From Auricularia sp. M13 (taxonomy: Eukaryota; Basidiomycota; Agaricomycetes; Auriculariales; Auriculariaceae), in NCBI GenBank assembly GCA_037042915.1, contig CM073193.1, positions 5,704,001 to 5,768,000 of the forward strand: a DNA stretch of 64,000 nt, written 5' to 3'. The notes beneath the pieces were generated by a model that saw only the letters and a program-made list of their open reading frames with translations, was not told the DNA's origin and did not search any database. Position 1 is the stretch's first letter. Each line of letters opens with the position of its first letter. Shown here piece after piece: positions 4,327-38,283 of the stretch. Made by a program: the position numbers and the translations under genes.

Positions 4327-5365
4327 TCATAGGCCGACATTCTCCTTGTCATCTTCGCGCCGTGCTCGCAATGGCAGGGACTTGTCGATCTCGCATTGGC
4401 CGGATAACAAAGACGTGTTGTCCTGCAACACCTGATGGATAGTGAGGGAGCAGATGCTCGGGGGAGGCGTGACGCTGAACGCGATCGTCGAACCACAATT
4501 GGAAGAATTCGCGAGGTCTGGGAAAGACATCTACAATAAGGTAAGCCGCGTGGAAGGTGTATGAAATGCGGGGCGCAACGAACCACATCGTCAAGAACAG
4601 GCCTTGAAATAAAGTTGGTCGCAGGAGGATTCGAGGAGCTCTTTGCTTCCCCGTCTCGATAATCAACTATGGTACGATCTCCCGGCCCAGGGACACGAGC
4701 CGCCCATGTCTTCGTCCCATACGGATTATCCTGGAACATATCAGCGATGTGACAAGCCGGGCGAACAAAAATTGGCGCACTTCAAACGACCGAATCCACG
4801 ACTGAACGACAACCTTGGGGCTTTTTCGCAAACTCGTTACAACTTCCTGGCAATGCGATTTGAGTTCCAGGGCCACCGAATGCGACATGGCCGCGGGAAG
4901 CCGACGAAGCGGTGCGTCGAGGGGTAGAATCACGATCTCCGGGAAAATGTACGTTGGATGTCCTTCGCGGTGCGTCCACGCCGGTTCGGTCTGAAAAGCC
5001 TTACGATCATGGAATATGGGCCGGATAGTGCTCTTGTCGCCAATGGGAACGACGATTTCTTGTAAGAGAAGATTCCATGTCTCCGGTTCATTTCCTTGGA
5101 ACGTGGAAAGGGGCAGTACGTGAATGCCCTTCAAAGTGCGCTGCAAAAATACGCAGGGCCGGAGATTGGGTTCCGCCAGCGGCTCCCACTTCGGGGCCTG
5201 TGTAGAGAGTTTAATGTTGTGGCTGTTTGCGGTGGATAGCGCGAGCTGGTATAAGGCCCGTTGAATTGAAATGACGCCTGTACAGAGCTGGCCGGGATAG
5301 AGATGGACGCGGCTGCGCTGGCCCGTGCTGTGCGGGTGAGCGGCGCAAACTGCGCCAGACGCCAT
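4327..5365 (-). CDS. Family A protein, copy A1 (C-terminal KEN motif)
   Basis: Three exons on the minus strand: 5365-4781, 4730-4584, 4530-4327; 311 aa. I do not recognise the family. Visible features: an N-terminal segment ending in an ISIQRALYQLA helix-like stretch (about residue 32), then RPCVFL, a PLSTFQGNEPETWNLLLQE block followed by IVVPIGD (about 105-125), FHDRKAFQTEPAWTHREGH, YIFPEIVILPL, and LKSHCQEVV before the first intron at residue 195. Exon 2 holds a NFISRPV motif. The last exon is polar and ends REDDKENVGL. No signal peptide or membrane segment is seen, so the protein is probably soluble and intracellular. It is transcribed head-to-head with B1 across 191 bp. The start matches the aligned starts of A3 and A4 in distance to the ISIQR helix. 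Function unknown. Confidence 0.85.
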
Positions 5366-5556
5366 TTTGGCGGGAGAGAAGGAGGAAGAGAAAGAGTAGG
5401 TGGTGGCCGGAAGCAGACCGGCCCTCGTTCCGTCGCTTCGAACGTGGTGCGAGGCCGCACGAACCTCGTCGCCGTTTCAACCTCCGACCTGCTTTTGTTC
5501 ATAAACCAGAACGCCACTCACCCCTCCATCTTAGTTGTGCACATTGCTTTCTTCGC
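5366..5556. promoter_or_regulatory. Divergent promoter A1/B1 with shared motif
   Basis: A 191 bp spacer between opposed start codons. TTTCAACCTCCGACC lies at 5475-5489, followed by TGCTTTTGTTCATAAACCA, and ends 67 bp before the B1 ATG. The same element lies at a similar distance before B2, B3 and B4. It could be a core promoter or an activator site shared by both genes; which one is inference. Confidence 0.65.
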
Positions 5557-6931
5557 ATGTCGTTTGTCGACTTCCCGTTGCCTAGAAATAATCGCCCGCC
5601 CTTCGGCGCCTTTGTCGTCGTCGCTCTCGATCCGGTGGCTTCGCTCGCAGGCATAAAAGACCCATCAGTCGAGGAAGCTGCCAGAAGGCTCAAGACACAG
5701 AAGCGCATCGTTATGGTGGACTTGGTGAGTCCAAGATGCCCGGGATGTAGCTAATCTCACGTCAACTTGTCAGGCACTCGGTGCACCGCCCGGAACGACG
5801 TACCTACATTTCAACCCAGTTGGATCTGCCCTTCCAAACGAGACATGGGCATGTGTTCCCGTTTCGCCACAGTCAAGCAACCCCGAAGGTCGCTGTCCAA
5901 TTAGCGTTTCCAGACCTTTGCCAATCGACAACGCATACATCCACACTACAGAGGCATTCGAAGGCATCGTGTCGCGAATCTACACAGACAGGCCAACAGA
6001 AATTCAGTGTTCAGATGCTGATCGGACGCGGGTGTATAGACAGCACCTGGAAGACGTGGCCAGGGTGGAGGCCGCCGAGTGGGACAATCTGCACGGTAAC
6101 GTCGAGCCGTCGGCACCTTCCCTCAATGACGAAGAGGAAATCATATTTTCTCCCTTCCCAATCTTGACGCAGCCGTGCTACCGCATGTGGCTTGAGGTCA
6201 GCGCGGACGAGACGTTTGCGGATCCTCGCACCCACCGGGAAGAAATCGATGCATTGCTTGCGTAAGTGAAGCCCCGCTTGAGGAAAACGTCGCTAAACGA
6301 TGCTGCAGAATAGAGGCCGAATGGCGCGAACGTCGAGAGCGGGAGTGTACGACCCGCGAGGACCGGCTCCTCCAGTGGCGCGAATCGCACGGCGAATACG
6401 AAAACTGGGAGGATGACGAGAAGTGCGCATTCAACTACAAAAGAGACCCTGATACTCACATTTTGCAGAAATACGCTGCAGTCCACTCGGGAATCCACGC
6501 CCGAACCTCCTGTCTGCGCGACGCACGAATGCGAGCAGGATGGAAGGTATTCATATCAGCGCAGTGAAGAGCAAAGCGAACTGTGCGTAGTGTTCAGCGG
6601 CATTATTTCGATCTTAAAGCTCATGCTTACCAGGTCCTTTGCGCACCTTTCCAATCTTTCCATTGGCCTGCGGGACCGCGATGGAAGCGCCTCTGAGACG
6701 ACATGCTCGGAGCCAGCTTCTGTGCGGTCTGGAAAGAACGACGACGACGACGTATCTTCCGAGTCGGCTCCGCACGTTACGGCGTATCCGGCTACGGGGC
6801 CATCAAATGACGGTCGACCGCAAAACTCGAATCGGATTGCAGATGAAGATGACTGGTTTCTGGCATACAGCCGCGTCAAGGCGTTCATTGGAGATTGCGT
6901 TCGCGCAATTATGCCAGCCGAGGCCTGGTAA
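5557..6931 (+). CDS. Family B protein, copy B1
   Basis: Five exons: 5557-5724, 5774-6261, 6309-6422, 6469-6582, 6634-6931; 393 aa. Unrecognised family. Exon 1 (56 codons) encodes MSFVDFPLPR, then FGAFVVVALDPVASLAG and KTQKRIVMVDL. Exon 2 holds the conserved core PLPIDNAYIHTTEAFEG plus VSRIYTDRPT, an acidic stretch, YRMWLEVSADETFADP and THREEIDALLA. Exon 3 starts IEAEWRERRERE, a basic helix. The C-terminal third is Ser/Asp/Glu-rich (a run of five Asp near residue 345) and ends in WFLAYSRVKAFIGDCVRAI, a plausible amphipathic helix. Exon lengths and phases match B2 and B3 closely, which supports the model. It pairs head-to-head with A1. The acidic middle and basic helix suggest protein-protein contacts, perhaps with the A partner; that is inference. 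Confidence 0.87.
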
Positions 6932-7397
6932 CCCGCGTCGCGGCACCGCCCGTCTGGCGGGGCGAGCCTTCTTGCTCATAAGTTCTTCGTGCAATCAGCA
7001 TTGTAAATAACTTGGTGCTATGCGAAACGAGCTCACTTTTTTGTGCTTCGAAGAGCCACCTTTCACGGGATGTAAGCTCCTCGCAACGATACGGACGGCC
7101 TAGCATGACAGAGTGGGGCGACTTCCTTGGTACGAGATTGACACGTTAGCGTCGGAGCCTGAAAGACCTTCTCCTCCTCCTTTCTTCCTCATTGTCATCC
7201 AGAGCATATGCGCGGGTCACGTAACCCCGTTTCTCGCTATTTGGCTTCGAGACCCGGTTCCAGGCTCGTTACGGCTTGCGCGACATGCCAGATCCGATCG
7301 CAGTGCTCCGAGCTCGGTATGAACGTCACGATGCTACTTCTATATAGGGCTATAGCTACACGCTCTGAGATTAAAACACAAGGGCTACGTATCCCGG
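6932..7397. other. Convergent spacer, no gene seen
   Basis: Between the 3' ends of B1 and the minus-strand hypothetical gene. No conserved frame or repeat noticed. Confidence 0.5.
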
Positions 7398-8297
7398 TCA
7401 ATATAGACGGCCTGACGCAGTCATGCGTCGCCGTCGCAGCGCGCGTTTCTTCTGCTGAACCTCCATGACCAAGATACCTCCGAGTCGCCTGAATATATCC
7501 TCGTGGCTATGCTCTTGTACGCTGGTATGCTGGATGACGTGGATATGTGCACTGTCATTCTTGGCGCCGTCGGTGCGAAAGGCGATGCAAGACCAGGTGT
7601 CGATCAGGGTTATCCTGGTCTCTGCGCTCGAGTGCTGGTGCTGCTGCTCTTGATCTGGATGCTGCTCATCTGGAGCATGCACACCGGCTGGGAACGCATC
7701 TGTACGATTGCGCAGGACGGAATGGGCGATGACGGCGGTCCTCGACATGTCTGCCGGTGCCATGTAGCCGAACACGGGCGATTGCATGACCAGGAAGGGA
7801 TTCAGCGCTGCCAGTGCGTACGAATGTTGTCCAGCCCAGTATTGTGAAGCTTGTTCGGGATACAGCGCGCACCAGTCGATGGGATCTACAGTCCGCTGCC
7901 ACGCATTCCAGTGGCAAGCAGGCGCTATCGGCATCGGCGCTGGATTGAATCGAGGCGCTGCCATTCGCTGTGCTCTAGAGCGTTTCTTCCTGGTCCTGGC
8001 GCGTCGCGAGCGTGTGCCAGAGTCGGTCTGCTTGTCGCCCTGGACGGCGTCGACCTGCGGCGTCGGTGCTTCAGGCGACGGCGGGAACTTCTCGCGCCAT
8101 TTGCCCGCGCCAGGTGACCAAACGAGCCACGCTTCGTTCCTGTGCATTGCGCTGCTCCTCGGCGTCGCGGCGCTGTTGTGCGTCGGATCGTCACTGGCGC
8201 TGCCCGCCGCCCATGCCGTTGGTGTGATCTGGCGCTCGCTTGTATGGTCCTCATGCTGGGAGGTCGCGTTCTTCTGGAATCGTGGGCCCGTCTTCAT
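7398..8297 (-). CDS. Hypothetical basic protein
   Basis: One uninterrupted minus-strand frame of 299 codons from ATG 8297 (an upstream in-frame ATG at 8387 would add a hydrophobic 30-residue leader and is less likely). I do not recognise it. The N-terminal third is Ser/Thr/Pro-rich with EAWLVWSPGAGKWREKF. A strongly basic RSRRARTRKKRSRAQR cluster near residue 125 could be a nuclear localisation signal. A Trp/Tyr-rich part follows (HWNAWQRTVDPIDWCALYPE), then a His/Gln-rich stretch and a basic C-terminus (KKRALRRRRM). No domain is apparent. The length of the open frame is the main evidence, and an intron could be hidden in it. It lies between two paired loci and shows no resemblance to family A or B. 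Confidence 0.5.
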   Translation of the reverse strand: MKTGPRFQKNATSQHEDHTSERQITPTAWAAGSASDDPTHNSAATPRSSAMHRNEAWLVWSPGAGKWREKFPPSPEAPTPQVDAVQGDKQTDSGTRSRRARTRKKRSRAQRMAAPRFNPAPMPIAPACHWNAWQRTVDPIDWCALYPEQASQYWAGQHSYALAALNPFLVMQSPVFGYMAPADMSRTAVIAHSVLRNRTDAFPAGVHAPDEQHPDQEQQHQHSSAETRITLIDTWSCIAFRTDGAKNDSAHIHVIQHTSVQEHSHEDIFRRLGGILVMEVQQKKRALRRRRMTASGRLY

Positions 8298-8575
8298 CAA
8301 AAAGAGTAGGTAAAGAGGAAAGAAACTGCACAGGACCGGCGGAAAGGTGCGGTGCGCGTTTATCCTGGAAAATACAACGATGATCACAGGATACTTGTGC
8401 TCGCACAGCTGCTATTGTGGCTTATGTATCTATTGAACATCGGTCGCTGGAGACATTAGGTGAGTCCTCATCCTGCATACTGTACATTGTATCAAGTTTG
8501 CCGTCGTCGTGCCCAGAGGTTCACCCAATCCCACCGCCATCGTGCCCATGGATATCTACGATCCGGCCGCATGGG

Positions 8576-9037: not shown

Positions 9038-9230
9038 ACCATGTAAATTTTCTTGGTGTAATCGATAAAGAGCTTTGTTTGAATTTGTGATGCCGCGACC
9101 TGACGGCGCTCGGTACCGCGGCGTACACTGTTATCGGGCGGGACGTGTGAACACGTGTAGCCAGGCGCCATTGAATCCCTTTATAGCCTATCGCTGCCTG
9201 TTCATCGCCTCACTGAAGTCGCATCTCAAC

Positions 9231-11510: not shown

Positions 11511-11724
11511 TGTATTTGGGCTTCCCCCCCCCTGTACTATTTGTTCTGCTGTTTCTGCCGCAAGCTCACTCAGACTGCCAGGTTGAACGCAACGTGGGGC
11601 ACGACTCTTTGGACGTTGATCAATATATGTTGACTTCTTGTCGTTCCTACACAGTACGATTCCTACATCTATAAACGACTTTCAGCAAAAACCCTCTGTG
11701 AAATCCAAAAGACTGAGGAGAGGT

Positions 11725-12044
11725 CACTGGGAGCATAGTAGAGAATCCATTGAGTATCTATTGAGTATCCTGACTCGACATTCAGATGAATTACACGAGT
11801 ATCCCAAGAGTATCATATCCTGAACTACTCTGGAGATACTCCAGGCGCAAGGTAATATATTGAAGAGTATCTCATGAGAATATTTGGGCCTCGAGGGATA
11901 CTCATCCAATATATCATCTTGTGTATAGAGTATCACCAGAGTGGTTCAGGATGTTATCCTCTTGGGAAACTCAGACCATTCATCTGAATGTCATTGCGGG
12001 ATACTCAGGAGATACTCAAGGGATCCTCGGCCTTGCTCTCAGTG
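11725..12044. mobile_element. Palindromic MITE, copy 1
   Basis: A ~320 bp imperfect palindrome. The left end CACTGGGAGCA and the right end TGCTCTCAGTG are inverted copies, and GAGTATC motifs recur in both arms (GAGTATCTATTGAGTATCC on the left, GGATACTCAGGAGATACTC on the right). The centre lies near the ATCTCATGAGAATAT string. The whole element could fold into one long hairpin. No coding capacity. A second copy lies at 31016-31338 in the same window. A target-site duplication is not obvious, so the superfamily is unassigned. Confidence 0.8.
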
Positions 12045-12487: not shown

Positions 12488-13871
12488 CTACTCGACCGAC
12501 ATGAACCCGGACATGCAGCTATCCGTGAACGCGTTCAAGCTGAAAGGAAGCACGTTGTGCTCGTGTCCGTCTGGTATCGGCTCTGAGCTCCGCAGGGCAT
12601 TGTCACTTGGCGATCTTGAAGGTTCAGAAGTCACTGGGCGTGTTTCAGATGACGAGGATGCCCCGGAGCAGCTCGTCTCCCAGCTTGAGGCCAATAACAC
12701 CGAGTATGCGCTGCTGGCCTTGCCTTGGCGGCACTCTGCATTTTCTTCGCCAAGAGAAAGGTTCGCAAACGACCTGTTCAACCTTAGTCGTAAATTCTCG
12801 CTGGTGATTCTGAATAAGTAATACGCACAGGTTGCCGCGTCCATCTCTTCGCTCGGTCGCCGGCGATGATGCTTTCACCTCGCATTTGCGCGGCCCATCG
12901 CTTTCCGTGCACAAAGGTTCCGACGGGCTGCTCCTGAAGACGTAATTGGTGAGCAGAGGTGCGTATCAAGTAGCTGGACACGTACTCATCAGCCAGCGGG
13001 GCAGCGTCGACGTCGTCGTAGTCACCGAGCCCCGCGCGCCAATGCAGGAGTCGCTCCTCTCGCGCTGTGCATTCGACTTCCCGACGTTCGCGCCACTCGG
13101 TCTCTATGCTATGGAGGCTTCAGCCGTGGCGTCGGTACGCAGTGCTTCACTTACGCCACCAACACGGCGATCTCGTCCTGGTGGTCACGCGGGTCAGCGA
13201 AAGTATCGTCCTCACGGACCTCGAGCCACATATAGTAGCACGGCCGGAGGAACGTCTTGACGAATGGCTCGAAGGCATAGTCCTCGTATTCGACGAGTGA
13301 TGAGGTCGTGAGCTCATCGCTGTTGGGATCGTCATCGCATTCCGCTTCGTCCATTCTGCTCCTGTCTTCCAGTCGCTGCAGACAGGCTCGTCGGAGATCT
13401 TCGTCGGAGCACTGAATGTTCGAAGGATTGTCCGTGTAAATTCGCGACACCACGCCGTCAAAGCATTCAGCCGTGTGCAGGTACGCGTTGTCCATCGGCA
13501 ACTTGTTGGAGAGTGGGATGGGCGGACGTTCCTCCGGATTACGCGTGGCAGGCAGAATCGGGATACATGCCCACTGAGTATCCTGTCGTGTCGGAAGGCC
13601 AGATCCGACGGGATAGAACTGAAAGTGTGCTGTGCCCGGTTCTCTGTAGAGCACCTGACGCTGACATGAGATTGGTTTACCCATAGATAAACGTCCAACG
13701 CACCACGTCGACCATGGCAAGGTACTTGCGAGTGGCGAATTGCCTGGCCGCCTGCTCGGCCACTGCGTCGTGCAGGCCTTCGAGTGACGCCACCGCATCG
13801 AGGGCGACTGTAACAAAGGTGCCATAGCGCGGGCGATCTTTCATGGGCCGTGGAAAGTCGATATATGCCAT
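12488..13871 (-). CDS. Family B protein, copy B2
   Basis: Five exons on the minus strand: 13871-13704, 13654-13155, 13108-12986, 12933-12829, 12782-12488; 396 aa. It is the closest relative of B1: MAYIDFPRPMKDRPRYG, then TFVTVALDAVASLEG; core KLPMDNAYLHTAECFDG with VSRIYTDNPS; YYMWLEVREDDTFADP and HQDEIAVLVA; then IETEWRERREVECTAREERL. The Ser-rich C-terminal part ends PFSLNAFTDSCMSGFMSVE. Exon 1 is exactly 168 nt, as in B1 and B3, and every junction keeps phase, so the gene looks intact. Its head-to-head partner A2 is damaged, so B2 may now be an orphan. Function unknown. Confidence 0.86.
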
Positions 13872-14053
13872 GCGAAGAGAGCAGCTTGCACGGTCCGGAT
13901 GGCTGGGATAACTGGTGTTATGGTTTCTGAACGAAAGCAGGTCGGGGGTTGAAAGGGCGGCAGAGGCTCCCACCACGTTCGGGCGACGGAACAAACACGG
14001 TCTGTTTCCGGTTCGACCACCACTCTCTTCCTCTTCCTCTTTCTCCCGCCGGC
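13872..14053. promoter_or_regulatory. Divergent promoter A2/B2 with shared motif
   Basis: On the minus strand TTTCAACCCCCGACC occupies 13954-13940, followed by TGCTTTCGTTCAGAAACCA, ending 68 bp before the B2 start. This is nearly the same 34 bp block as upstream of B1. Confidence 0.65.
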
Positions 14054-15057
14054 ATAGCCTCCGGCTCTGCTCGTGCTGTGCCCGTGCACGGCGGCTGCAG
14101 GCCGTATCGGCTCAAGCTCACTCGAGGCCAGCTGTACAGCGCTACAATTTCCGTTCAAATGGCCATGCACCAACTGGCCTGTTCGCTCGCCGACTTCGGC
14201 GACATTCCACTCTCTACACCGACCCCTTACACCGGTGGAAGATCTCGGCCATTTATATTCCTGCTGCAAGATGAGCAGGGGATCCACGGTATTCCGCTAT
14301 CGACATTCGAAGGATCGGATCCCGCGGAATGGAATCTCCTTCAACGAGCGATCGCGCTTCCCTTTGGCGATAATATTCTTTCCTTTTTCCACGATCGCCC
14401 GGTCTTCCAGACGCAGCCGGCTTGGAATCATCAGGATGGCCACCAAACGTACATCGTGCCCCGCGTGGTGCTGTCGACACAACGATTCGCCGCCTATGCC
14501 AGCCCGTGTTCATGGATGGCGCCACGGTCAAGCGACTCGAAGATCATTGCTTGTCCGTTGTTCGGAATCTGGAGAACAGCCCTCTGGACGACCTCGTCGC
14601 GTTGATAAAATTGTATGAAGTGCGTCGGGTTTCTGTCCGGGCTCCGTCACGTTCTCACTTTATTCCTCAGAATAAGCCGGCAGGAAAGACCGTGGAGACC
14701 TCTCCTAGCGAACAGGAAAACATTAACATCGAAGTTACGAACGGACAAGTACAGAGTATGCTTAATCCGGAGGCCCCCGCCTTCATCCCACGGGCGGCTC
14801 GGGTGGACACTGTACGCCGTCCTTCTCTCTTCCTTTCTGCTGCATCATCTCAGATCTGCTTTCCGCCTCTGCAGCTATCCTTTCCGAACTTGGCGGGCTC
14901 AGGCTGTGCTTCCACGATCGCATTTACCATTGCTTCAAGCGTTACCGCGCCGTCGGTCCTGGAGGCGTTGCAGAACATTCCACCTCGCGAGGTCGACTCG
15001 GAGCCGCGAAAGCCGCCGGGGGCACACAAGGAGGACAAAGAGAACATGCGTCTATGA
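14054..15057 (+). pseudogene. Family A copy A2, damaged
   Basis: Exons by homology: 14054-14619, 14671-14811, 14854-15057. Conserved parts: ISVQMAMHQLAC, RPFIFLLQDEQGIHGIPLS, PAEWNLLQRAIALPFGDN, FHDRPVFQTQPAWNHQDGH, then LEDHCLSVV, AFIPRA and the terminal HKEDKENMRL. The last exon is 204 nt, as in A1. Two defects are visible. The codon aligned with the A1 start (MASG) is ATA here (IASG at 14054). The first exon also needs a one-base change of frame between about 14455 and 14490, since the YIVPRVVLS part and the TIRRLCQPVF part lie in different frames. An in-frame ATG at 13949 could give an N-terminal extension but would overlap the promoter motif. Either a recent pseudogene or, less likely, a sequence error plus an alternative start. 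Confidence 0.75.
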
Positions 15058-18407: not shown

Positions 18408-19479
18408 CTACGGAGGTGCAACTTGAACGTTCTCCTTGTCGGCCTCGTGCGCAGCCGGGGCCGTAAGTTTCAACGCGGAAGAAGTACTAATCGAGCGTTG
18501 TACATCGGTGCGGTTCGCCGCTGCCGCTGGTCGCAGGGGCTGAGAACGAGATTGCAAGCGCGAAGACTCGATGATGGACGAGAGGGTCAAGAGCGAGGCG
18601 CCATCGCCGTTGTCGGTCGCGAGATATTGGAAGGACAACTGTCCCGCGGTGAGCTGGTTGCTGCTGTGGGCAGTAAAACGGGAATGCGCGGCACGCACCA
18701 CGTCGTCGTCGGTGAGCAACCAGCGGGGCACGAAGTCTTCCACTGCGGCAGACAGGCCGCTCGTCTCAGCCTGAGCCTCCGAGTCGTCCTGGGCGACCGA
18801 AGTATCTTGGGCAGTTGACCGCCTCGTGATACCGGGGTACAACCGCTCCATGCGCGCCTTAGAGGGCATCAATGGTAGCCACGCGTCGAGACAGTCAACG
18901 CACGGCGTATGACTGGAGGCAGGCCTCGACTTCAGGGACTGAATACGAGCGGTTGAGGAGCGCGGAGCGATCTCTCGTGAGCTGCTCGAGGCGGCTGACA
19001 CACTGTACGCTCGCCCTCGAGCGCACGCGCTTGACTTCCGCCGTGAAAAGGATGGTCATCTGCTGGAGCACCAGGTAGGTCGGCCGTCCGTCCCCGTGGC
19101 GCCACGGCGGCGTCGTCTGCGCGAAGAACGCGTCGCGAAATGCGGGGTCATGCTCCGCGAGCGTCCCCACGGGCACCACGATCTCCCGCAGGAGCAGGTC
19201 CCACGTGTCGGGCGCGGTCCCACCGAAGGTAGCCATGGGCAGGACGATCCACCCTTGTGCTGAGCGCCCAATGATCATGGAGGGCCGCCAAGTCTTCCAA
19301 TTCTGCAACTTGGGTGCATAGGTCCTCCGGGGGAGCGGCAGGCACAAGCCTCGCCCCGATGCGAGCTCGTGCGCAAGTTCCAGAAGGATGTTTTCGATCG
19401 AGATGTATGCTTTGATCACGTATCCTCTATCACGGCCCTTCCGCAGAGACAGGCTGAGTGGGTCTGCGATCGGCCCCAT
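18408..19479 (-). CDS. Family A protein, copy A3 (C-terminal KEN motif)
   Basis: Two exons: 19479-18904 and 18857-18408; 341 aa. Start chosen at 19479, which places the ISIENILLELAHELAS helix at the same distance as in A1 and A4; an in-frame ATG at 19563 would add 28 residues. Core: RPSMIIGRSAQGWIVLPMAT, APDTWDLLLREIVVPVGT, PPWRHGDGRPTYLV, VSRLEQLTRD. After the intron, at the same position as in the other A genes, come VEDFVPRWLL and a Ser/Ala-rich segment ending HEADKENVQVAPP. One intron fewer than A1. Head-to-head with B3 across 246 bp. No known domain. Confidence 0.83.
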
Positions 19480-19725
19480 GGCCCGAATCGAGGAAGCGCA
19501 GAGAGAGGTGGTGGGTGATGGCAAGCGCGGAGGTCCGCACCAACCGAATCCGAAGCTGCTCAAATACGCCGCTGTGGTTATCCAGCCGTGGTGCGGGAAC
19601 TGGTGAAGCCAAACATAGTGTGGTGAAGATTATTTCCCCGACGCGTGGTGGAACAACCACCATTTCAACCTCCGACCAAGATTCTTTTAAAAGGCCGGTG
19701 CCACACCTCGCCCTGCACGCCAACC
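19480..19725. promoter_or_regulatory. Divergent promoter A3/B3 with shared motif
   Basis: TTTCAACCTCCGACC at 19663-19677, 48 bp before the B3 ATG. The downstream part (AAGATTCTTTTAAAAG) is less like B1 and B2. Confidence 0.6.
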
Positions 19726-21070
19726 ATGTCAGTCATCGACTTCCCACAGCCTAAGCGCGATAGAATACCTAGCGGAACCATCGTCGCTGTCCGGCTCGAC
19801 GCCTCAGCTTCAGTGGCACTCATGAACGACAAGCTCGTGAACAGCGCAGCGAGCGAGGTCAAAACGCAGAAGAGACTCGTTATAATCGACATCGTGAGTG
19901 CACGATGTCTATGTGTGCGAGAAACTCACAGTGAGCAGCCATTCCTTGGAGCGCTGAACCCTGTTATCATGCGACATCGGTTCTACCAGATCGGCCGAGG
20001 GCTCCCTGCTGATAGCTGGGCATCGGTTCCCATCATCCCCGGAGCTCAACATCCCGAAAATCGGCGCGGTGTAGAGCCTACAGCGCCACTTCCCTTCGAT
20101 GATGCGTCAGTTCATACGGCGTATAGCTTTGAAGGCACGGTGTCTCGGTTACACCTGAAGGAGCCGTCCGGCATCAGCTTGTCGACTGAGGACACGACCC
20201 ACGTTTTCGAAAGTCAGCTTTATGACCGCAACCGGTTAGAGCTCGGCGAAGGATGGGACAAGGCCGAGGATGACGAGGTGTGCGACTCCGACTCGGATTT
20301 CGAGATTCCGGAGGTGTCGTTTCTGGACCCGCACTACGAGATGTGGTTGCACGTCGAGGGGGAAAGCTACGCAGACCCAAGTACTCTGAGGGCCGAATTG
20401 GATCAGCTGCGCGCGTGAGTCCCCGTCTGACCCAACGATGTTCAGTCCACCAACCTTCCTGATGCAGGATTGAAGAGGAGTGGCGCACACGTCGGAAGCT
20501 CGAGGCCGATACAAAAAACCGGCAGCTGGAGCAATGGCGCGATAAGCTGGGCCCTGACGTGCCCGCAGAAGTCGATAAAGTCGACGAGTGCGTTACGACG
20601 CGTAATGCTGGCGTTGCATGCTTTCTGATGCACATTCTAGAGTATCTCCGCATGATGACCTTCTGTCGCCTGAGGATGCGGTGGACTCGGCGCTCGACGA
20701 GGAGGCGCACAGCGCGGCGCAACTGAACACCCGTAGTGAACAAGGGTGCGCATCATTTATTCGCATTGCTGTCGAGATGCGCCTGACGATGGTTAACCAA
20801 ACGCGCAGGATTCAACTGAGTGATATCCTATCAACGCACGGTTCGAGTATGGATGGCGCTCCTGTCGACCCAGTTCGTGCGAATCGACACCTCATCGCAG
20901 ACCCGGAAACAGCGCCTTCGACGGCCATTTACGCCGGTACGTCGGAGCCCTCCTTGGTCAGAATATCGAGCGGGAACGCGAGCGGGTACCCTTGGGAATG
21001 GGTGCCGTGTCACACGGGTCTTATTGGGCGGGTAGTTGCATTCCTGCGCGCGCTCATCTTGGCCTGGTAG
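19726..21070 (+). CDS. Family B protein, copy B3
   Basis: Five exons: 19726-19893, 19939-20414, 20468-20587, 20641-20745, 20809-21070; 376 aa. Exon 1 is 168 nt and encodes MSVIDFPQPKRDRIPSGTIV and KTQKRLVIIDI. Intron 1 is only 45 bp and stays open in frame, so retention would not stop translation. Core: GRGLPADSWASVPIIPG, HTAYSFEGTVSRLHL, YEMWLHVEGESYADP; then IEEEWRTRRKLE. The tail is hydrophobic and aromatic: YPWEWVPCHTGLIGRVVAFL plus RALILAW at the stop, the most membrane-like C-terminus in the family. Pairs with A3. Confidence 0.86.
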
Positions 21071-21676: not shown

Positions 21677-22730
21677 TCAAGCCGGCACATTCTCCTTTTC
21701 GACCTCTGTATCGACGACATCCAGTTGCGTTGTAGCCTTGCGTGCAGTCCGCGCGCGCGCGGCCGCCGCCATGTTCTTATGGAACCGGAGCGGCGAGAGG
21801 TGTGCCTCGGACGTATCAGTGGGAATTGAGTGCACACTGCCCACGCTCGGGAGCTACAATTACGCGTTAGCTATATGACGACGATAGAGAATATTTGGAA
21901 ATACAATACTTACCAAGCGGGGGACGAACTCTTTGGCCACGGGATTAAGGGTGCTGGTGCTCGCAATACTCGACGCGGATTCCGAGTAGTCGCTGCACTG
22001 CGACAGCGGTCGCTCCAAACTACCGGTATCGTTGGCAAGACGATTTTTCTTCTTCGTCTTTTTCTGTTGTTTACGATACATCTGCCGAGCGTCTTAGATC
22101 GTTATCGTCCTCGAGGAAGAACACCAGAAGACGCACCAAGAACGAATTGATCAAGATAGAAAGCACCTCATGCTTATAGTCCGAAACCATGTGTTGAGCT
22201 AGGTTCTGGCAGTGCGCCTCGAGATCTTTGACATCGGCCTCAGGAACGACTTCGACGAGGGGCTGCAGCTTGTAGCCAGCCGGTAGTATGACAATCCTCG
22301 GAAGAATGTACGCCGGCAAACCGTCGGCCTGCACCCAAGGCGGTATCGAGTCGTATAACTTCCGCCCGTGCAGCGCCGGCGAGATGTTCGCGTCGTCGTC
22401 GCCCACGGGTAGGGCGATCTCGCGCAAAAGAAGGTCCCACTCCTCTGGCGCCATTCCAGAGAACGTGCCCATAGGAATGACTCGCTGACCTCCGCTCGCG
22501 GTGCGATCAAGAAGAATGCATGGACGCTTGCCAGGCGCTTTGGAAACGCGGTGATGGGCCTTGGGTAGACGGATGTTTAGGTCGGCGGATAGTGATACCA
22601 ACTCGTGGGCAAGCTTGAGGAGAGTGTGCTCCATAGACACTGGGGCCAGCACCACCCTCCCTAAGGACAGTCTGCGATCAAGCCCACGTTTTTTCACTGG
22701 CGTGCGGGGTGAAGCCGCAGTCGTCGGCAT
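21677..22730 (-). CDS. Family A protein, copy A4 (C-terminal KEN motif)
   Basis: Three exons: 22730-22137, 22081-21914, 21853-21677; 312 aa. The start aligns with A1 and A3 relative to SMEHTLLKLAHELVS; an in-frame ATG at 22805 also exists. Core: RPCILLDRTASGGQRVIPMG, APEEWDLLLREIALPVGD, PPWVQADGLPAYILPRIVIL, LEAHCQNLA. Exon 2 is Lys-rich (YRKQQKKTKKKNR) and ends in AKEFVPRL. Exon 3 carries an Ala/Arg stretch and ends TEVEKENVPA. The second intron uses the acceptor after GCTAACGCGTAATTGTAG, with a good branch site. Head-to-head with B4 across 224 bp. Confidence 0.83.
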
Positions 22731-22954
22731 CGGCAATGGACAGAGGGGACGTGCAAGTGATGGTCGGCGGCGAGGGCGGAGTGCTGAGCTCGGAATCGCT
22801 CGCAAAGGGACGTGGTGGCGACGAGAGCCTGATTCAGAGCGTGGTGGGTTGGTCCCGGAGAGTTGCCGTGATTTTGTTCAGAAGGACGGGTTTCGACCTC
22901 CGACACATACCTTTGTTCTGGCCGCGCGCCACCTCTCAGTACCGCACTCCTACG
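22731..22954. promoter_or_regulatory. Divergent promoter A4/B4 with shared motif
   Basis: TTTCGACCTCCGAC at 22891-22904, 50 bp before the B4 ATG, followed by CTTTGTTCTGG, recalling the TTTTGTTCA after the B1 motif. Confidence 0.6.
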
Positions 22955-24277
22955 ATGTCCTTTACCGACTGGCCCAAGCCGCAGTTGGGCGTATCTGGGA
23001 CGTTCGCCGTTGTGGCCCTCGACCCTGTTGCGTCACTCGCCAGTTACAAGGATATCTTGGTCAATCATGCGGCCAAAGCCCTCAGGCCTCAAAAACGCCT
23101 AGTAATCATTGACCTGGTCAGTAACCAGTGCCAACAGAGAATGAATTACTGTCTGACGTCCCCATCCAGCCTCGAGGCGTTACGGATCCCTACGTCCGAT
23201 GTCACTGCTTCCACCCTGTCGGCCGCGGACTGCCCTTCGAAGAGGACTGGGCAACAATACCCATTTGTCCTGCAACGGAACATCCTGAAAATCGAGCGCC
23301 AGTGACACCGTCGGGGCCACTTCCGATTGAAAACGCCTATGTACACACCTTGCACACATTCGACGGTGGCGTATCCAGGCTCTACACCGATCGCCCGTCC
23401 AACATCGTGATATCGAAAGAGGACACGAAGCGTCTGCTTAGGGCTCAGATCGATGACTATGTCCGGCACCAGCGGATGTACCTGTCCGAGATCAGCGACG
23501 ACTCGGGCGAATGGGAGAGTACTCCGTACTGCGGACCCTGGGGGTCGGATGACCTGAACTATGGACCTGCACCGGACCGAGATGTGGGCGACGGCTCAGA
23601 TGGCGACTCATATGGCGACTCAGAAGAAGACTCGAGTAACAGCCAGAGTTCGGAGGAGCAGCTCGAGCCGTCCGTGGAGCCACACTATGTTATGTGGATG
23701 GACATCGACGAAGCCGAGAGCTACGCCGATCCTGCGACGCACCAGGTCGAGATCGACCAGCTGTTAAGGTAGGTGCGCGTTAGTATCAGGCGCAGAATGC
23801 ACGTAGCTGATGACGGCGCAGTATCGCAGACGACTGGCAGGAGCGCATGAAGTCAATCCAGTCGACCAGGAGTGAACGGCTCCGCGCGTGGCTCGAGTCG
23901 GTAACAGAGTGCGATCCGATAGAAGAGCAGGTCGTGGCCGATAACCAGTACGCAGAATTTCGTTGAAAGTCATGAGCTGGCTGACGTAGGCAATTTGCAG
24001 GCACCTGGACTCGTATGTTGGCGATGAGTCTTCCGACGTGCCTGTAGACGCGCAGGAAGTCGAATCATCTGCATTGCACATAGAGTTCGAAGTCGCGACG
24101 AAGCACAGCAACCTCGAGGGTTCGCGCGCATCTGGTTCGTCGTCAAGCTCGGAGCAGCCGGGCAAAGGGTGTTTGCAGGTTTGCGTGGACAGCCTGCGGC
24201 CTTGCACGCGCGACATTGTCCTCGAGAGCAGCCTCTGTCACATCCTAAAACCCGGCTGCGCTGTTGGCGCGCGGTAA
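22955..24277 (+). CDS. Family B protein, copy B4
   Basis: Four exons: 22955-23116, 23170-23768, 23822-23947, 24001-24277; 387 aa. Start MSFTDWPKPQLGVSGTFAVV; exon 1 ends KRLVIIDL. Core: GRGLPFEEDWATIPICPA, PLPIENAYVHTLHTFDG, VSRLYTDRPSNI. An expanded Ser/Asp/Glu-rich insert precedes YVMWMDIDEAESYADP and HQVEIDQLL. The block equivalent to EWRxRR is changed to DDWQERMKS. The C-terminus is Cys-containing (CLQVCVDSLRPCTRDIVLES) and lacks the fifth exon of B1-B3. Pairs with A4. The copy looks intact. Confidence 0.84.
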
Positions 24278-30950: not shown

Positions 30951-31015
30951 ATCACTGTCCCAGCCATCCACTTTCCAAGTCATTGCAAGGTATCCCTCGG
31001 GGCGGCTAATCCATG

Positions 31016-31338
31016 CACTGGGAGCAAGGCTGAGGATCCCTTGAGTATCTATTGAGTATCCCGACGTGGCATTCAGATGAATGGCACAAGTTTCCCAAGA
31101 GTATCATATCCTGAACTACTCCAGAGATACTTGATGCACAAGGTAGTATATTGAATGAGTATCTCATGAGAATATCTGGGCCTCAAGGGATACTCATCCA
31201 ATATATTACCTTATGCATTGAGTATGTTTGGAGTAGTTCAGGATATGATACTCTTGGGAAACTCGTAACATTCATCTAAATGTCAAGTCGGGATACTCAA
31301 CAGAAATATTCAAGGGATCCTCGGCCTTGCTCCCAGTG
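31016..31338. mobile_element. Palindromic MITE, copy 2
   Basis: A 323 bp imperfect palindrome with ends CACTGGGAGCAAGGCTGAGG and CCTCGGCCTTGCTCCCAGTG. Better-preserved terminal arms than copy 1 (11725-12044), the same GAGTATC-rich arms and the same central ATCTCATGAGAATAT. Inserted just downstream of the DUF2235-WD40 gene and directly left of an A5-like fragment. Confidence 0.82.
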
Positions 31339-31347
31339 CTGGGCGAT

Positions 31348-32216: not shown

Positions 32217-34170
32217 TTAGTCGTCCTCGTGGATGCCGGCGGGCCGCTTCAAGTTCTCCGTGTCGACGCCGGGGAGGGGCCACTGGCGCGCGAAGGTGCG
32301 CACTTCCTTCGCCAGCGCCTTAACGTCGGCGCTCTCGCCCGCCACGCGCACGAAGTCCTACGATGAAATGAGCGCTCAAGTATGCCATATGGACGGAGAA
32401 GCGTATAGCTACCTTGAGCAGCTTGGAGCCCGCGGCCTTCTGGAGCTCAAGCGAGAGCTGGACGGCGCGATGCAGGAAGCCGGCGACGGTTTCCATGTCG
32501 GCCTCGGTCATCGAGCGCGAGGTCAGCGCGGAGGTGCCGAGGCGGATGCCGCCCGGCGCCTGCGCGTTCTGGTCGCCCGACACGGCGTTCTCTGCACGGA
32601 TGGGTTAGGGGTGGGCTAGCGGAAGGAAAGAAAAAAAGAAACTGCGCACTGTTGATAGTGATACCCGCCAAGTCGCAGATCTTCTCGACCTTGGAGCCGG
32701 TGAGCTTGAGCGGGCGCAGGTCCCAAAGGATGAGGTGGTTGTCCGTCCCGCCCGTCTGGAGCTTGTACCCGTTCTTGAGCAGCGCGCTGCTCATGGCCTG
32801 CGCGTTCTTGATGACCTGCTGCGCGTATGCCTGCACATCGAACCTCAGTCTATGTCCAAGAACGTCGTCGGTGCCGCTCACCTTGAAGCTCGGCTGCGCC
32901 GCCTGCCCAAGCGCAACAGCAATCGCCGCAATAGTGTTATTATGCGGGCCGCCCTGGCACCCCGGGAAGACCGCCTCATTGACGCGCTTCTCAAGGTCCT
33001 TATGCTGCTCGCCGTCCTTGCGGAAGAAGATCAAGCCGGCGCGCGGTCCGCGCAGCGTCTTGTGCGTCGTGGTCGTGACGACGTCGCAGTACGCGAACGG
33101 GTCCGCGAGCGTGCCGGCGGCGACGAGGCCGGAGGTGTGCGCGATGTCGGCCATGAGCCACGCGCCGTGCTCGTCGGCCGTGGCGCGCAGCGACGCGTAG
33201 TCCCAGTCGCGCGGGTACGCGGACGCGCCACAGACGACGAGGCGCGGCTTGAAGAGGCGCGCCTGGTTGCGCAGCGCCGTGTAGTCGATCAGCTCCGTCG
33301 CGGGGTCGAGCCCGTACGGCAGCGACTGGAAGTAGATGGACGACGCGGAGATTTTCTTCTTGGCCGTCTGTGCAAATGCGTTAAGCATGGCGAATTAACT
33401 GAGATTACACGAAACTTACATAGTAACCATGGGTCAGATGGCCACCGTCCGGCAGACCAAGACCCATGAGCCTGTCCTGAGGCTGGATGAGCGCAGTGAG
33501 GGCCGCGAAGCTGGCAACATGTTTATTAGCATCGGGCCGATAATCCCGAACGACAAGCTCGTTGACTCACTTGGCCGTCTACAACCAAAGTCAGTAACTA
33601 AAAAAAATTGAACTGAACACGGCCAGACGCACGCTGCCCGAGTATGGCTGGACGTTGACGCCCCACTTGGCCGGGTCAAGGTTGAACGCCTTGAGGGCGC
33701 GGTCGCGGCACAGTTGCTCGAGCTCGTCGATCCACTCGTTACCGCCGTAGTACCGGGCTCCAGGAAGGCCCTCGGAGTACTTGTTGGTCAGGATGGAGCC
33801 GTTGGCCTCCATCGTGGCCCGGCTCGTCAGGTTCTAGATAGATGTTCGCTCATCGAAGGCCGCGGCGAGCAAGGCACGGACGAACCTCGGACGCGATGAG
33901 CTCGAGGCCGGAGAACTGGCGCCATGTCTCCTTGTCGATGATGTTCTGGATGGCGGGATCCGCCTGCGCCAGCGGCGTGTACAGATCCTTGTTCTAATGC
34001 ACAGAAAAAGTAAGTAACCGAGCAAGTAAGTAAGTAAGTAAAAGTAAGCTCACAAAGTCGTTAGGAGTAAAGGCCATGGTGCGGGCGAGCAGGACGGGGC
34101 GCAGACGGGGCGGGCGGGCGGCGGCGCGGGCGAGGAGGGCGGGGGATGGCAAGAGCGCACGGCGGAGCAT
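32217..34170 (-). CDS. SHM2: Serine hydroxymethyltransferase
   Basis: Nine exons: 34170-34054, 33993-33886, 33833-33633, 33578-33571, 33510-33420, 33367-32882, 32830-32650, 32591-32413, 32357-32217; 503 aa. PLP-dependent SHMT of one-carbon metabolism (serine + THF to glycine + methylene-THF). Motifs: [74 protein letters not shown], the PLP-lysine segment [33 protein letters not shown] and [20 protein letters not shown]. Exon 4 is only 8 nt (ACGGCCAA), needed to read GSTANFAAL. The N-terminus before MAFTPNDF is Arg/Ala/Leu-rich without acidic residues ([20 protein letters not shown]), like a mitochondrial presequence, so initiation at either ATG could give mitochondrial and cytosolic forms. 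The intron at 32881-32831 is 51 bp and in frame. The symbol follows yeast usage; paralog identity (SHM1 or SHM2) cannot be decided here. Confidence 0.95.
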
Positions 34171-35081
34171 GGCGACCGACGAATTTTATAGCGGCGCCAC
34201 ATGTCGCCTGCCACTTTGCTTCGGACCCTAAATTTTCTTTTCTTTGCGCTATCACCTCATCGGCCGACTCGGACGCGCGTTCTCACCGGCTCAGTCTCTG
34301 ACAGCGCGCTCCGCTCAGACTATCATTGACCACTCGAGTGCTGTATTTCTCAGTCTTCAGAGAGACTTGCCAGGCTAGTATCACTGCACCCGCTACTGCT
34401 CCAAGCCTCGTGCGATTAGACTATTATTGTTCCCTTGTTTCCATCGGTTGCATCGTACCCGTGTTGCATGGCTGCGGTTCGAGGACACTGCTTTGGGATC
34501 TCTATTACTGGCCCGGAGCAGACTCGGAATCTGGCTCGCCCCCCTCGACATTCTAGATCCTCCCTCTACTCTACGCCGTATACTGCACTTCGCGAACACA
34601 TTCTGGAGTCTGAATAGTTGGTGTCAATCACAATGGCAAATGACCAGGCTTCATGTGAAGATTGCGCAACGACAGCCAGATGATAATACCCCCGCCAGCA
34701 CTCGCCCTTTATATCAGTGGCATGGTCAACTATACGTCCCATGTGATCACAACATGGCATACGGGACGTAAACGATCTTATACTGGTATATTATGGCTCG
34801 GAGTATAGTATCAAGAGACTAAATGACGGTACGTGGAGATGTCAACAGCGTTGCGCCGCTAGACCGATGTAAGCCCCATTGGGCTGACGGATGCGTGAAG
34901 GGGTTCTTCAAGTTGTATAAAACAGCGCCGCGCAAAAAGTCACCAGCAGCGAGGGTGGGAAGGACACCGAGGCCTCGGTCGCCTCCCTGCGACTTGCGCC
35001 TCGCGTGAGATACCACAGACCAGGATTCTTCTTCGTCGATAGTCTTAAAAATATGCGTGAGAAACGACGCCGGGAATGCGA
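34171..35081. other. Spacer SHMT / A5, possible extra A5 exon
   Basis: SHMT 5' region plus, at 35027-34819 on the minus strand, an open stretch (TIDEEESWSVVSHARRKSQG...) preceded by a TTTTTAAG acceptor. It could be a third A5 exon reached from the GTGAGT donor at 35091; undecided. Confidence 0.4.
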
Positions 35082-36380
35082 CTACAGTGCACTCACCATT
35101 TCGACCTTTCCAAGCTCCGAGTCGTCAGGACCAGCCTGATCGTTCGCTGAATTTGGGCTGCTGGCCTCAGAGGGCGGCGAGTTGATGCTAACTAGTGGCT
35201 GCGTCGACGTCGGCGGGGACTCGATGCTGCGAGGGGGGTCTCTGGGCGAGGAGTCGCACGACGACGAGTCCGGCGTGGTGCTCAGGGACGGCACTGCCGC
35301 GGGCGTATCGGCCGTCGGGACTGCGGAAGGTTCGTGTAGCACTGGAAGCGTGGCCAGGGAAGGAAGAGAAGCGTCTGTGTCCTCGTCAATGGGTAATATG
35401 GTCCAGTGATTAGGTGTCACGAGCGACACTGGCTCCACGGATTGCGTTCGACGATGTCCGCGGGCCGCGCGAGGTGACGTCGGGCAAGCAGGCGATTGCG
35501 CGACGCGAGGGCAACGGGGAGACAGTGGCGGACCGGGCATGGGTGGGACTGCTCGAACGCGATTAGGTGACTGCAGCTGGTTGCCGACGTGCTTCGTTGG
35601 TGCAAGAGAAAGTGGCACGCGGGGAGCGAGCGAACGATGCTGCTGCTCAGAAGCAGCACGTCGGTGAGTGCCCAGCCCGTTCGATGAGGTCTGCTTTGCG
35701 ATGCGGTAAAGCTCTTGGCTTGCCTATAGAGATGCATCAGCCCAGTGTACGCAAATGACTCGGATTACCAAAGGACTGACCACGTAGGATTTATCCAGTT
35801 GTTTACGCTCAGCACCACGCTTCGCGGACATGGATGCAGACTTCAGGGCACAAAGACTCTCGAGCTTCAGCAAGGACCTCTCTTCGCAATGATAGAACTT
35901 GTCTCCCGTTTGATAGCGATGTAGAAAGCTGCTGTGTGGTACGCTGAGGGTACAGGCAGTCAAGTACTGAGGGACGGTGCGCCAGCGCGGTTCGATCGGC
36001 AGGGTCCAAGAGTTCTGCGAGGGCCAAGGCGACGTGTCACCCACAGAGATAGCGAAGTGTTGAAAATACTGATTCATCTCACGGATGTCGGTGATTCCGT
36101 TACCTAGAGTAGTAAAAACGACGACAGTGGCAACCATCGTATTCAGATTGCTGTCCACAACGAGACATGGACGCATCGGGAGAGAGCTTCCAGCGCTCTC
36201 GAGCCTATCCTTGTCGGTCTGCATCGCAACGGAAAGACCAGCAACGCTGCATGCCTCGGCAGCCTGCAGAACAGGCAAGACGGCGCTGAGCCGGGCAGCC
36301 CAGATTTGGCCTCGCTGCGGCGACTCCGGTAAGTCGACTCCGGGTCGAGAGATGTCCAAGGATAGGGTGGAGCCAGCCAT
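35082..36380 (-). CDS. Divergent family A protein, copy A5
   Basis: Two exons: 36380-35781 and 35723-35082; 413 aa. It is recognised as family A by order and spacing: LSAVLPVLQAAEACS helix, RPCLVVDSNLNTMVATVVVF, IREMNQYFQHFAISVGDT in place of the WNLLLxEIxxPxGD motif, LPIEPRWRTVPQYL, and a first intron at residue 200. The second exon is long, Pro/Ser/Thr-rich and probably disordered. No KEN motif is present in this model, which ends GKVEMVSAL. A GTGAGT donor exactly at VEM could instead splice to an exon ending at 34819. Head-to-head with B5 across 372 bp. Confidence 0.7.
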
Positions 36381-36752
36381 TGGGGATGATGAAGTCGGAG
36401 GTGCAAGCGACCATGAAATGCTTGTTTACATACGCGCTGCGGCCGCGCAGAACAACAGCCATTGTGTTCAGCAAGCAACAACGGCTCCACGGCAACGGGC
36501 ACAATGAAGAAGAATCGAGTCGACGCGCCGAGTTGATTCCGAACAAGAGTCGCCTTGTCTCGTGCGGACGCAGGCGCTGCCCGGATGCCTTGTACTGCGT
36601 ACTATAGTGATGTGTCTCGCGCATCCCGTTGTTCTCGGTGCACGTGAACAGTATGGAAGGCAGACGGTTGCACAGCAAAAGTCAGGAACGCGATATCGCG
36701 CCTTGTTCACTCTTATTTCAAGGTCCGCTGATATCCTCTTCCTTCCCTCGTC
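36381..36752. promoter_or_regulatory. Divergent spacer A5/B5, motif not found
   Basis: Longest of the five spacers. The TTTCRACCYCCGAC element of the other pairs was not found on either strand, in line with the greater divergence of both genes. Confidence 0.5.
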
Positions 36753-38283
36753 ATGGACGTCGTCGATAAGCCAAGTATGGCGGATATGCCTGACTTTGGT
36801 TCATTTGTTGTCGTATCTCTGGATCCAGTCGCCTCGGTAGCGGCGCTGGAAGACGAGCAAGCTACTCAGGAGGCTGCGGCGATGATTCCTGGGAAATATC
36901 TTGCTTTGGTCAATTTGGTGCGTCCTAGTCCTTTTTATTTCATCGCGCTAACTGTGGAGAAAGCCTGGAGAAATGGTTTACTCTAGCGAAATCGACGACA
37001 TCGAACTGTGTTTGTCTTTTCTTCTTGTCAGCCACGGCTTGCCCAAGCCTCCGTATGCGAAGGCTGCCGTTCCCATCGCTCCAGCACCGCCGCATCCCGA
37101 CTTGGACCCGGATCGAGCACCTGTTCATGCGTCGTCACCTCTGCCGTGGGCTGACTGTTACTTTCATACGCTGGAACGCGTCACCGCAACCGTGTCTCGT
37201 ATCTATCTGCATTCCACCACGGGTCCGAGCTTCACCGAAGACGAGCATGATGAAATCAGGTACATGTCTGGGATGGACACGCGGGCGTATCCCGCCTTTG
37301 GTGCTCGTGTCCCAGAAGTAGTCGAGGAACACGGCTCCGACGTCGCGCTCTCGTTCTCGCAGCATGGGCATTTAGAACCCGATGTCCGGAATGTGGTCCT
37401 CGATGATACTCCCTTTTTCCCTGTGCAGTGCAAGGAAGGCATACCCATGATGCGGATCCACGCCCAGATGTGGCTCGACATTACGGCTTTCGATACTCAC
37501 GACCATCCCGAGAATATCCATGCGGAGCAGCGGCGGCTTGTAGAGTAAGGTGACGATGTTCGACTATTACACTTGCGCTAACACGCCCCGCAGAATTGAG
37601 CGGCAGTGGGCGCGCCGCGCTGTCAGGAAGATGATGTCCAAGGAGCCCCAGACAACAGCTTGGCTTCAGGGTGCGGCTGGCGCGGACGCCCCTGAACTAG
37701 ACGAAGATGGCCGGTCAGTCGTCCGTAGTGCGTGCGCATATCCACTTATCGCATGACGCAAAGCAGCTCTGTCTCATTGGACGACGATGAATTGATTGGG
37801 CCAGACGACGCGATCGAACATCGCGCAGAACGCAGTAAGTTCTTCAAGTCGCGTGGTATCGAATTTGGTTAACCTATCTCTCTAGTGATGCAAGAAGACG
37901 CTGACCGCGACCCGGACAACGAGTCGGATGTACAGAGAAGTATCTCTCCCGTTCATCGTGGGGTCGACGTTGCACAATCAAGCGCATCCGGTATGTCGGT
38001 ATCCAGCAGCTCGAGTCACCATTCTGTGGCGGCAAGTGCTTCCTCAGGTGTGGATCTATTTCAGTCATTTGGTTTTAAACTGACCGCTTACGTGCTTAGG
38101 AGCAGGCGCCCTTACTCCAAGGAATTGGGGCGGTCTCTCCGGTACGTCAATCTTACACCTGGTTTCCTAAACCCTCACTCTCCAGTAGCTTTTCGCTGGA
38201 TCCTCTCAAACCTTGGTTCTGTCTTTTCGCGCGCAAGGTCCTACTTCTGGAGTATCCTGTGGCGGAGACCATTCGCGAAGTAG
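36753..38283 (+). CDS. Divergent family B protein, copy B5
   Basis: Seven exons: 36753-36917, 36964-37544, 37594-37713, 37767-37834, 37886-38047, 38100-38141, 38186-38283; 411 aa, all phases consistent. Exon 1 reads MDVVDKPSMADMPDFGSFVV, then SLDPVASVAALED and KYLALVNL. Core: VSHGLPKPPYAKAAVPIAPA, PLPWADCYFHTLERVTATVS, MWLDITAFDTHDHPENIHAE (counterpart of MWLxVxxxESYADP), then IERQWARRAVRKMM. A Ser-rich stretch and the C-terminus RWILSNLGSVFSRARSYFW plus SILWRRPFAK follow, an aromatic, basic, probably membrane-active helix. It has two more introns than B1-B3. Pairs with A5. Confidence 0.82.

Follow-up and report, generated by a model that had tools for sequence, protein, structure and literature searches.

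Divergent gene pairs of two unrecognised families in Auricularia sp. M13 may form a two-gene module acting at polyadenylated mRNA

The genome of Auricularia sp. M13 (52.1 Mb in 14 contigs) contains pairs of divergently transcribed genes from two families, here called A and B, five of which lie within the analysed window, a 64,000-bp stretch of contig C1 (C1:5704001-5768000; GenBank CM073193.1). The intron structure of the genome and its STE3 and homeodomain genes are in keeping with a basidiomycete. An A/B pair is one co-inherited, selected unit that duplicates together, and such pairs occur on five contigs. The reading that best explains the whole of the data, to which we would give slightly less than an even chance, is that each pair constitutes a two-gene module acting at polyadenylated mRNA.

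Gene models for A1-A5 and B1-B5 were built by hand (Table 1). The five divergent pairs described in an initial annotation of the window, with gaps of 180-370 bp, are all present between positions 4327 and 38283 (A1/B1, B2/A2, A3/B3, A4/B4 and A5/B5), and 182-372 bp separate the 5' ends of their coding matches. The first exon of the B genes, given as 54-56 codons long with conserved phases, comprises 56, 56, 56, 54 and 55 codons in B1-B5 and ends in phase 0 in each of them; among 21 automatic models of additional B copies it has 55-58 codons in 20, the remaining model (B_c5_2831) having a clearly wrong splice. The A intron placed near residue 195 was likewise recovered, since exon 1 has 195, 192, 198 and 199 codons in A1, A3, A4 and A5, respectively, the splice site being least certain in A5. 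The sequence blocks ascribed to B stood in part: PLPxxNAYxHT and MWL..YADP are found, with substitutions, in B1-B4, while EWRxRR is present in B1-B3 but is replaced by DWQERM in B4 and QWARRA in B5. The A2 gene is damaged, carrying ATA at the position of its relatives' ATG start as well as a 2-base frame shift. The A genes also possess tail exons, which the initial annotation did not describe, and the 3' ends of the B genes (last exons) are provisional in the models.

Whole-genome searches with single proteins produced 49 exon-level B matches, and A matches on contigs C1, C3, C5, C9 and C10. In a profile search of selected genome stretches, 25 A loci and 38 B loci were located. The B count omits two profile matches with E 0.036 and 0.038. 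Copies known only from the single-protein searches stand outside the locus counts, for example the B genes at C1 5267503 and C5 3374522, the A gene at C5 3360793, and fragments of both A and B at C5 3366 kb. A B gene is faced head-to-head at 22 of the 25 A loci, spread over the five contigs, and 17 of these pairs, beyond the five of the window, lie outside it with both partners profile-matched, far above chance. Of the 22 head-to-head pairs, 21 have gaps of 182-671 bp, measured from one 5' edge of the protein matches to the other, and one has a gap of 1051 bp. At the A locus C1 5289445 the neighbouring B is on the same strand, and two partial A copies (C1 5264819 and 5698092) have no B within the stretch examined on their 5' side, which for the former is short, the B at 5267503 lying about 2.4 kb beyond it. 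The 24 tallied neighbour pairs consist of the 22 head-to-head pairs, one with a partial A and the same-strand pair; 23 of them are divergent (P 2.6e-13 assuming four equally likely arrangements, the copies being related and not independent). The proposal that the pairs might encode interacting partners is therefore supported in the sense that A, being nearly always paired with B, and B are probably functional partners; in this one genome the two families are regular neighbours. On the other side, 16 of the 38 B loci have no facing A match in the profile search, so B can exist alone; for one of these 16 (C3 3883715), the single-protein search shows a partial A opposite it.

The distance matrices of A and B are closely correlated (Mantel r 0.919, 21 of 22 pairs used), and none of 5000 permutations gave a value as high, the best being 0.358. 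The nearest neighbour is identical in the two families for 12 of 21 pairs, and seven of the remaining nine have both neighbours within their own contig group. The ratio of non-synonymous to synonymous substitution (dN/dS, NG86) is below 1 in all 13 comparisons made, namely 0.30-0.43 in five of five for A, 0.18-0.48 in seven of eight for B, and 0.72 in one near-identical B pair, whose changes are too few to be informative; the 12 comparisons with dS above 0.03 span 0.18-0.48. The A and B genes are thus under purifying selection. Judged by best identity to any other pair, A is the less conserved partner in 20 of 21 pairs and ties with B in the remaining one, indicating that A diverges faster. 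The two families look mutually unrelated, the possibility that A and B are homologues of one another having been rejected after hhalign found nothing, and their head-to-head co-duplication on five contigs strongly points to obligate partnership.

The same arrangement might arise in a lineage-specific gene family kept together solely by one bidirectional promoter, with neither physical partnership nor shared function. The short gaps fit this explanation, and linkage alone, or segmental duplication by itself, would also correlate the A and B trees. In addition, the 8-mer ACCTCCGA, selected as the most enriched one, is found in seven of the 22 shared gaps versus 0.2 expected from first-order resampling; it may represent a shared promoter element or common ancestry. 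However, the head-to-head order persists in five of 21 pairs in which A shares only 25-39% identity with its nearest relative, linkage holds on five contigs, and the lone B loci show that the two genes are separable, even though A seldom occurs without B. The retained order and this separability suggest a working unit, and it is unlikely that a promoter is all that holds the pairs together. The cell-cycle promoter boxes ACGCGT and CGCGAAA occur in only two of the 22 shared gaps each, and a reading based on them was rejected.

Several observations concern individual copies. Seven B copies examined at C5 2.83-3.42 Mb are 81-86% identical to one reference copy, and within this group two pairs reach 97% and 99% identity. 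Only two of the seven are faced by an A, which points to B having expanded recently, for the most part without its partner. Diverged A genes were sought by eye beside B at C10 0.71, 0.75 and 0.88 Mb, C5 2.829 and 2.842 Mb, and C1 5.455 Mb, and none was recognised. In an A copy close to c1_5408, located at C1:5352745-5353529, the core is interrupted by an insertion of about 190 bp.

The tails of some A proteins contain two short motifs of known function in other proteins. PAM2 is a motif recognised by the MLLE domain of poly(A)-binding protein (PABP), and is present in proteins of mRNA metabolism such as Ataxin-2, Paip1, Paip2, PAN3 and TOB; the KEN box is a degron dependent on the anaphase-promoting complex/cyclosome (APC/C). 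A position-weight scan for PAM2 gave eight matches in 24 A tails (21,602 amino acids, aa), compared with 21 matches, these eight included, over all A/B loci on both strands (517,076 aa), and none in 26 B tails (25,948 aa). Seven of the eight are located 43-60 codons of genomic DNA past exon 1. The Pfam model PF07145 matches five of seven tail pieces, which had been preselected by the motif scan (c1_5353 was omitted, its motif being the same as that of c1_5408). Its curated cut-off of 20 bits is exceeded by A4 (27.8 bits) and c1_5410 (25.3 bits), while A2 (18.5), c1_5297 (17.5) and c1_5408 (17.3) remain below it. A KEN box of the form [DE]KEN[VM], at most eight residues before the stop codon, terminates seven of the 24 A tails (A1-A4, c1_5353, c1_5408 and c1_5410), the background being 28 in 699,540 aa over all loci and frames, with the seven included. 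The same genome encodes a candidate PAM2 partner, a gene with an MLLE domain on C4 (PF00658, 65 bits). In Ustilago maydis, the PAM2 motif of Upa1 is described as binding the MLLE domain of Pab1 (PMC4466420), so this partner logic has a precedent in a basidiomycete. The A proteins resemble known PAM2 proteins in carrying the motif in a presumably disordered tail, but differ from them in a core that matches no Pfam family of theirs, in the head-to-head partner and in the terminal KEN box. The combination of PAM2 and KEN in the tails suggests a role in mRNA biology rather than in recognition.

Together these features suggest how a poly(A)-mRNA module might operate. The A/B module would duplicate, spread and be retained as one unit, and its short divergent gap would serve as a shared promoter, so that A and B are made simultaneously; a common promoter is probable. 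The A product would be small, with a compact core followed by a long tail, which in the A1-A4 subfamily would dock via PAM2 on the MLLE domain of cytoplasmic PABP, and binding of A to PABP is likewise a likely prediction. The terminal KEN box of this subfamily could set the level of A through APC/C-dependent destruction, allowing its timed removal, although we propose its action as a degron only tentatively. The B product would be a partner of A that sets or limits its action at polyadenylated mRNA, at the level of stability or translation; whether the two proteins are in contact is evenly balanced.

Apart from the lone B loci, several features of the tails weigh against this module. The PAM2 weights were set after A1-A4 had been seen. 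The motifs of A1 and A3 are degenerate and their tail pieces have no PF07145 match, and the motif of c1_5297 lies 303 codons downstream, perhaps outside the gene. The scan detected no PAM2 in 16 of the 24 A tails, although several tails are incomplete at stretch ends; in A5 neither PAM2 nor KEN was found by scanning. Moreover, KEN is restricted to one A subfamily, and PAM2 to that subfamily plus c1_5297.

The cores of both proteins are unrecognised, as the initial annotation had proposed: no Pfam, NCBIfam or PDB family covers either of them significantly, and neither is accounted for by a characterised family. No Pfam family covers the A core (14 A members scanned) or the B core, and no antitoxin family of Pfam or NCBIfam was matched by B. 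Single weak Pfam matches (Thioredoxin_7, CdiA_C_tRNase, Pox_G9-A16 at 23.8 bits versus a cut-off of 24, and others) were taken as chance. Searches of PHROGs with A gave ten single weak matches (best E 0.0066), nine of them unnamed, which are uninformative. The A and B alignments found no protein at E <=0.001 among 8000 candidates each in a collection of 5.8 billion proteins, which may lack fungi, and among the literature matches listed, neither such pairs nor MazF/PemK-like proteins of mushrooms are mentioned.

A faint resemblance to a bacterial family was detected for the A core. A profile of 14 A proteins gave six matches at E <=10 among 177,635 PDB sequences, the top three being MazF endoribonucleases (best E 0.07). 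All three PDB matches of a 23-protein profile (best E 0.87), and all three of a 10-protein profile of the A5/C1/C5/C9 type (best E 0.027), were MazF as well; the profiles have proteins in common, and the PDB sequences matched, three in number, represent two different MazF proteins. The aligned block has the form RP-x-hydrophobic ... P-x-T-T. The R and P of the RP motif are conserved in 24 of 24 A proteins, with the R aligned to the catalytic Arg25 of MazF, and all 24 have a threonine at the counterpart of Thr48 or, in the five C3 copies, one residue before it; the register of both residues relies on weak alignments. Arg25 and Thr48 are given as catalytic residues of MazF in the cited source (PMC7354611). 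In hhalign comparisons with 194 MazF sequences, the 10-protein profile attained E 0.003-0.007 and outscored all of its 200 column shuffles, while the 23-protein profile outscored 199 of 200. The B profile is borderline (three of 197 shuffles as good), and the G-x-FVVI-x-LDP block of B exon 1 aligns to the first strand of MazF.

These similarities are opposed by a number of results. The hhalign probability for the best A profile is only 6-10%. The seven-protein profile of the A1-A4 subfamily and the five-protein C3 profile found no MazF in PDB and did not exceed their shuffles (58 and 29 of 200 as good), and no MazF was found in PDB with the B profile. The Pfam PemK model (PF02452) has no match genome-wide at E <=10 and gave no first-look candidates, and none of six weak NCBIfam matches is MazF. 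The first two putative strands of the A core are separated by about 40 additional residues. AlphaFold models made from the window sequences alone had predicted local distance difference test (pLDDT) values of 43 for A (five rows) and 38 for B (nine rows), too poor to judge. A MazF/PemK-like barrel in the A core is therefore a tentative possibility, somewhat less probable than its absence, and it is rather unlikely that the core still acts as an RNase.

If the resemblance is taken at face value, the pairs could represent a eukaryotic toxin-antitoxin-like module in which PAM2 would tether A, an endoribonuclease of MazF type, to mRNA, and B, either a MazF-like relative that has lost catalysis or another partner, would restrain A, which would be harmful without it. 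The PDB matches, the conserved Arg and Thr positions and the B exon 1 block are in line with this, and so is the pairing, since an A lacking a head-to-head B (three of 25) is less common than a lone B (16 of 38), as would follow from harm done by A on its own. Like MazEF, the A/B pair is a two-gene unit, but it is divergent while MazEF is an operon, no MazE-like partner is among the family matches of B, the A core has about 195 aa against 111 in MazF of Escherichia coli, and some A copies have a long tail with PAM2 or KEN. The weak scores, the lack of signal in two A subfamilies and in the family models, the absence of homology between the A and B profiles, the uninformative structure models and the two partial A copies with no B in the examined 5' stretch all stand against it, making the toxin-antitoxin-like reading as a whole unlikely. 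Its most specific version, a chromosomal fungal system in which an A protein of MazF fold is delivered by PAM2 and removed through KEN, and the head-to-head B is a dead MazF-like restrainer, would be less probable still.

The initial annotation compared the pairs with HD1/HD2 mating-type genes of mushrooms, and they do share divergent orientation, short shared gaps and several tandemly duplicated, diversified copies. However, its statement that A and B lack a homeodomain motif proved correct in Pfam scans, which gave no homeobox match, and the analogy itself was not supported. The STE3 genes are on C7, and homeodomain matches occur on C3 near 1.15 Mb, C6, C9 (1.92 and 2.72 Mb) and C10 (1.30 Mb), with none on C1; those closest to an A/B locus, on C9 and C10, lie about 0.165 and 0.18 Mb from it, respectively. 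A linked MIP gene is a feature of HD1/HD2 mating loci; peptidase M3 matches, which should include MIP, are located on C6, C9 (0.27 and 0.37 Mb), C10 (2.32 Mb) and C12, with none on C1 or near an A/B locus. With these genes elsewhere, the A/B clusters are not mating loci, and this was rejected as the main reading after the homeodomain, STE3 and M3-peptidase homologues had been located. A self/non-self or mating recognition locus, at which the diversified proteins would recognise partners, whether cognate or non-cognate, would agree with the faster divergence of A, but it is very unlikely given that neither protein matches a homeodomain, pheromone or receptor, that 22 pairs are scattered over five contigs instead of forming one MAT locus, and that purifying selection does not look like that of diversifying recognition genes.

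Table 1. Features of the five A/B gene pairs in the window
Feature	Position	Strand	Basis
A1 last exon, ending DDKENVGL + stop (KEN box)	4327..4530	-	gene model, KEN scan
A1 degenerate PAM2-like stretch SSSNPPATNFISR	4602..4640	-	motif scan; without Pfam PAM2 match
A1 core exon, 195 aa	4781..5365	-	gene model and profile match
Pair 1 shared intergenic region, 191 bp	5366..5556	.	gap measurement
B1 exon 1, 56 codons	5557..5724	+	gene model
B1 exon 2	5774..6261	+	gene model
B1 exon 3, EWRERRE block, end provisional	6310..6414	+	gene model
B2 exon 3 block, end provisional	13012..13107	-	gene model
B2 exon 2	13155..13654	-	gene model
B2 exon 1, 56 codons	13704..13871	-	gene model
Pair 2 shared intergenic region, 182 bp	13872..14053	.	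gap measurement
A2 core, damaged (ATA for start codon; frame shift 14477-14478)	14054..14619	+	gene model
A2 PAM2 motif SMLNPEAPAFIPR	14749..14802	+	Pfam PF07145, 18.5 bits, E 0.0016, under 20-bit cut-off
A2 last part, ending EDKENMRL + stop	14875..15057	+	gene model, KEN scan
A3 C-terminal EADKENVQVAPP	18411..18446	-	gene model, KEN scan
A3 degenerate PAM2-like stretch SGLSAAVEDFVPR	18720..18764	-	motif scan; without Pfam match
A3 core exon, 192 aa	18904..19479	-	gene model and profile match
Pair 3 shared intergenic region, 246 bp	19480..19725	.	gap measurement
B3 exon 1, 56 codons	19726..19893	+	gene model
B3 exon 2	19939..20415	+	gene model
B3 exon 3 block, end provisional	20469..20588	+	gene model
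A4 exon 3, ending VEKENVPA	21680..21853	-	gene model, KEN scan
A4 exon 2 with PAM2 motif STLNPVAKEFVPR	21914..22081	-	PF07145, 27.8 bits vs cut-off 20, E 1.6e-6
A4 core exon, 198 aa	22137..22730	-	gene model and profile match
Pair 4 shared intergenic region, 224 bp	22731..22954	.	gap measurement
B4 exon 1, 54 codons	22955..23116	+	gene model
B4 exon 2	23170..23769	+	gene model
B4 exon 3 block, end provisional	23820..23903	+	gene model
A5 core exon, about 199 aa; member of the MazF-matching profile group	35784..36380	-	gene model, PDB profile search
Pair 5 shared intergenic region, 372 bp	36381..36752	.	gap measurement
B5 exon 1, 55 codons	36753..36917	+	gene model
B5 exon 2	36964..37545	+	gene model
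B5 exon 3 block, end provisional	37595..37714	+	gene model

Other features were noted in the window. Two copies resembling miniature inverted-repeat transposable elements (11725-12044 and 31016-31304) have inverted arms that are 78% and 87% complementary and 44 and 11 nt apart, and are 83-85% related to one another. The segment 28690-30950 comprises an open reading frame (ORF) for a Tle1-like hydrolase (PF09994, 61.5 bits) followed by a WD40 ORF. A short-chain-dehydrogenase-like gene, named by eye, is present as an inverted duplicate (39123-40206 and 42748-43827) with arms 75-84% complementary. Identical 300-bp direct repeats at 50607-50906 and 62752-63051 possibly derive from a recent mobile element, to which the nearby repeats of 94-103 bp at 45436-47723 may also belong.

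If the A/B pairs are a genuine poly(A)-mRNA module, they would represent a fungal mRNA-control system outside the curated families searched, present in more than 20 copies in one genome. Should the MazF lead be true, A would represent a eukaryotic relative of the bacterial mRNA interferases that works as part of a pair and docked on PABP, and if the toxin-antitoxin-like reading were correct, about two dozen diversified copies could act as parallel mRNA-cutting switches or constitute a cell-death or conflict system.

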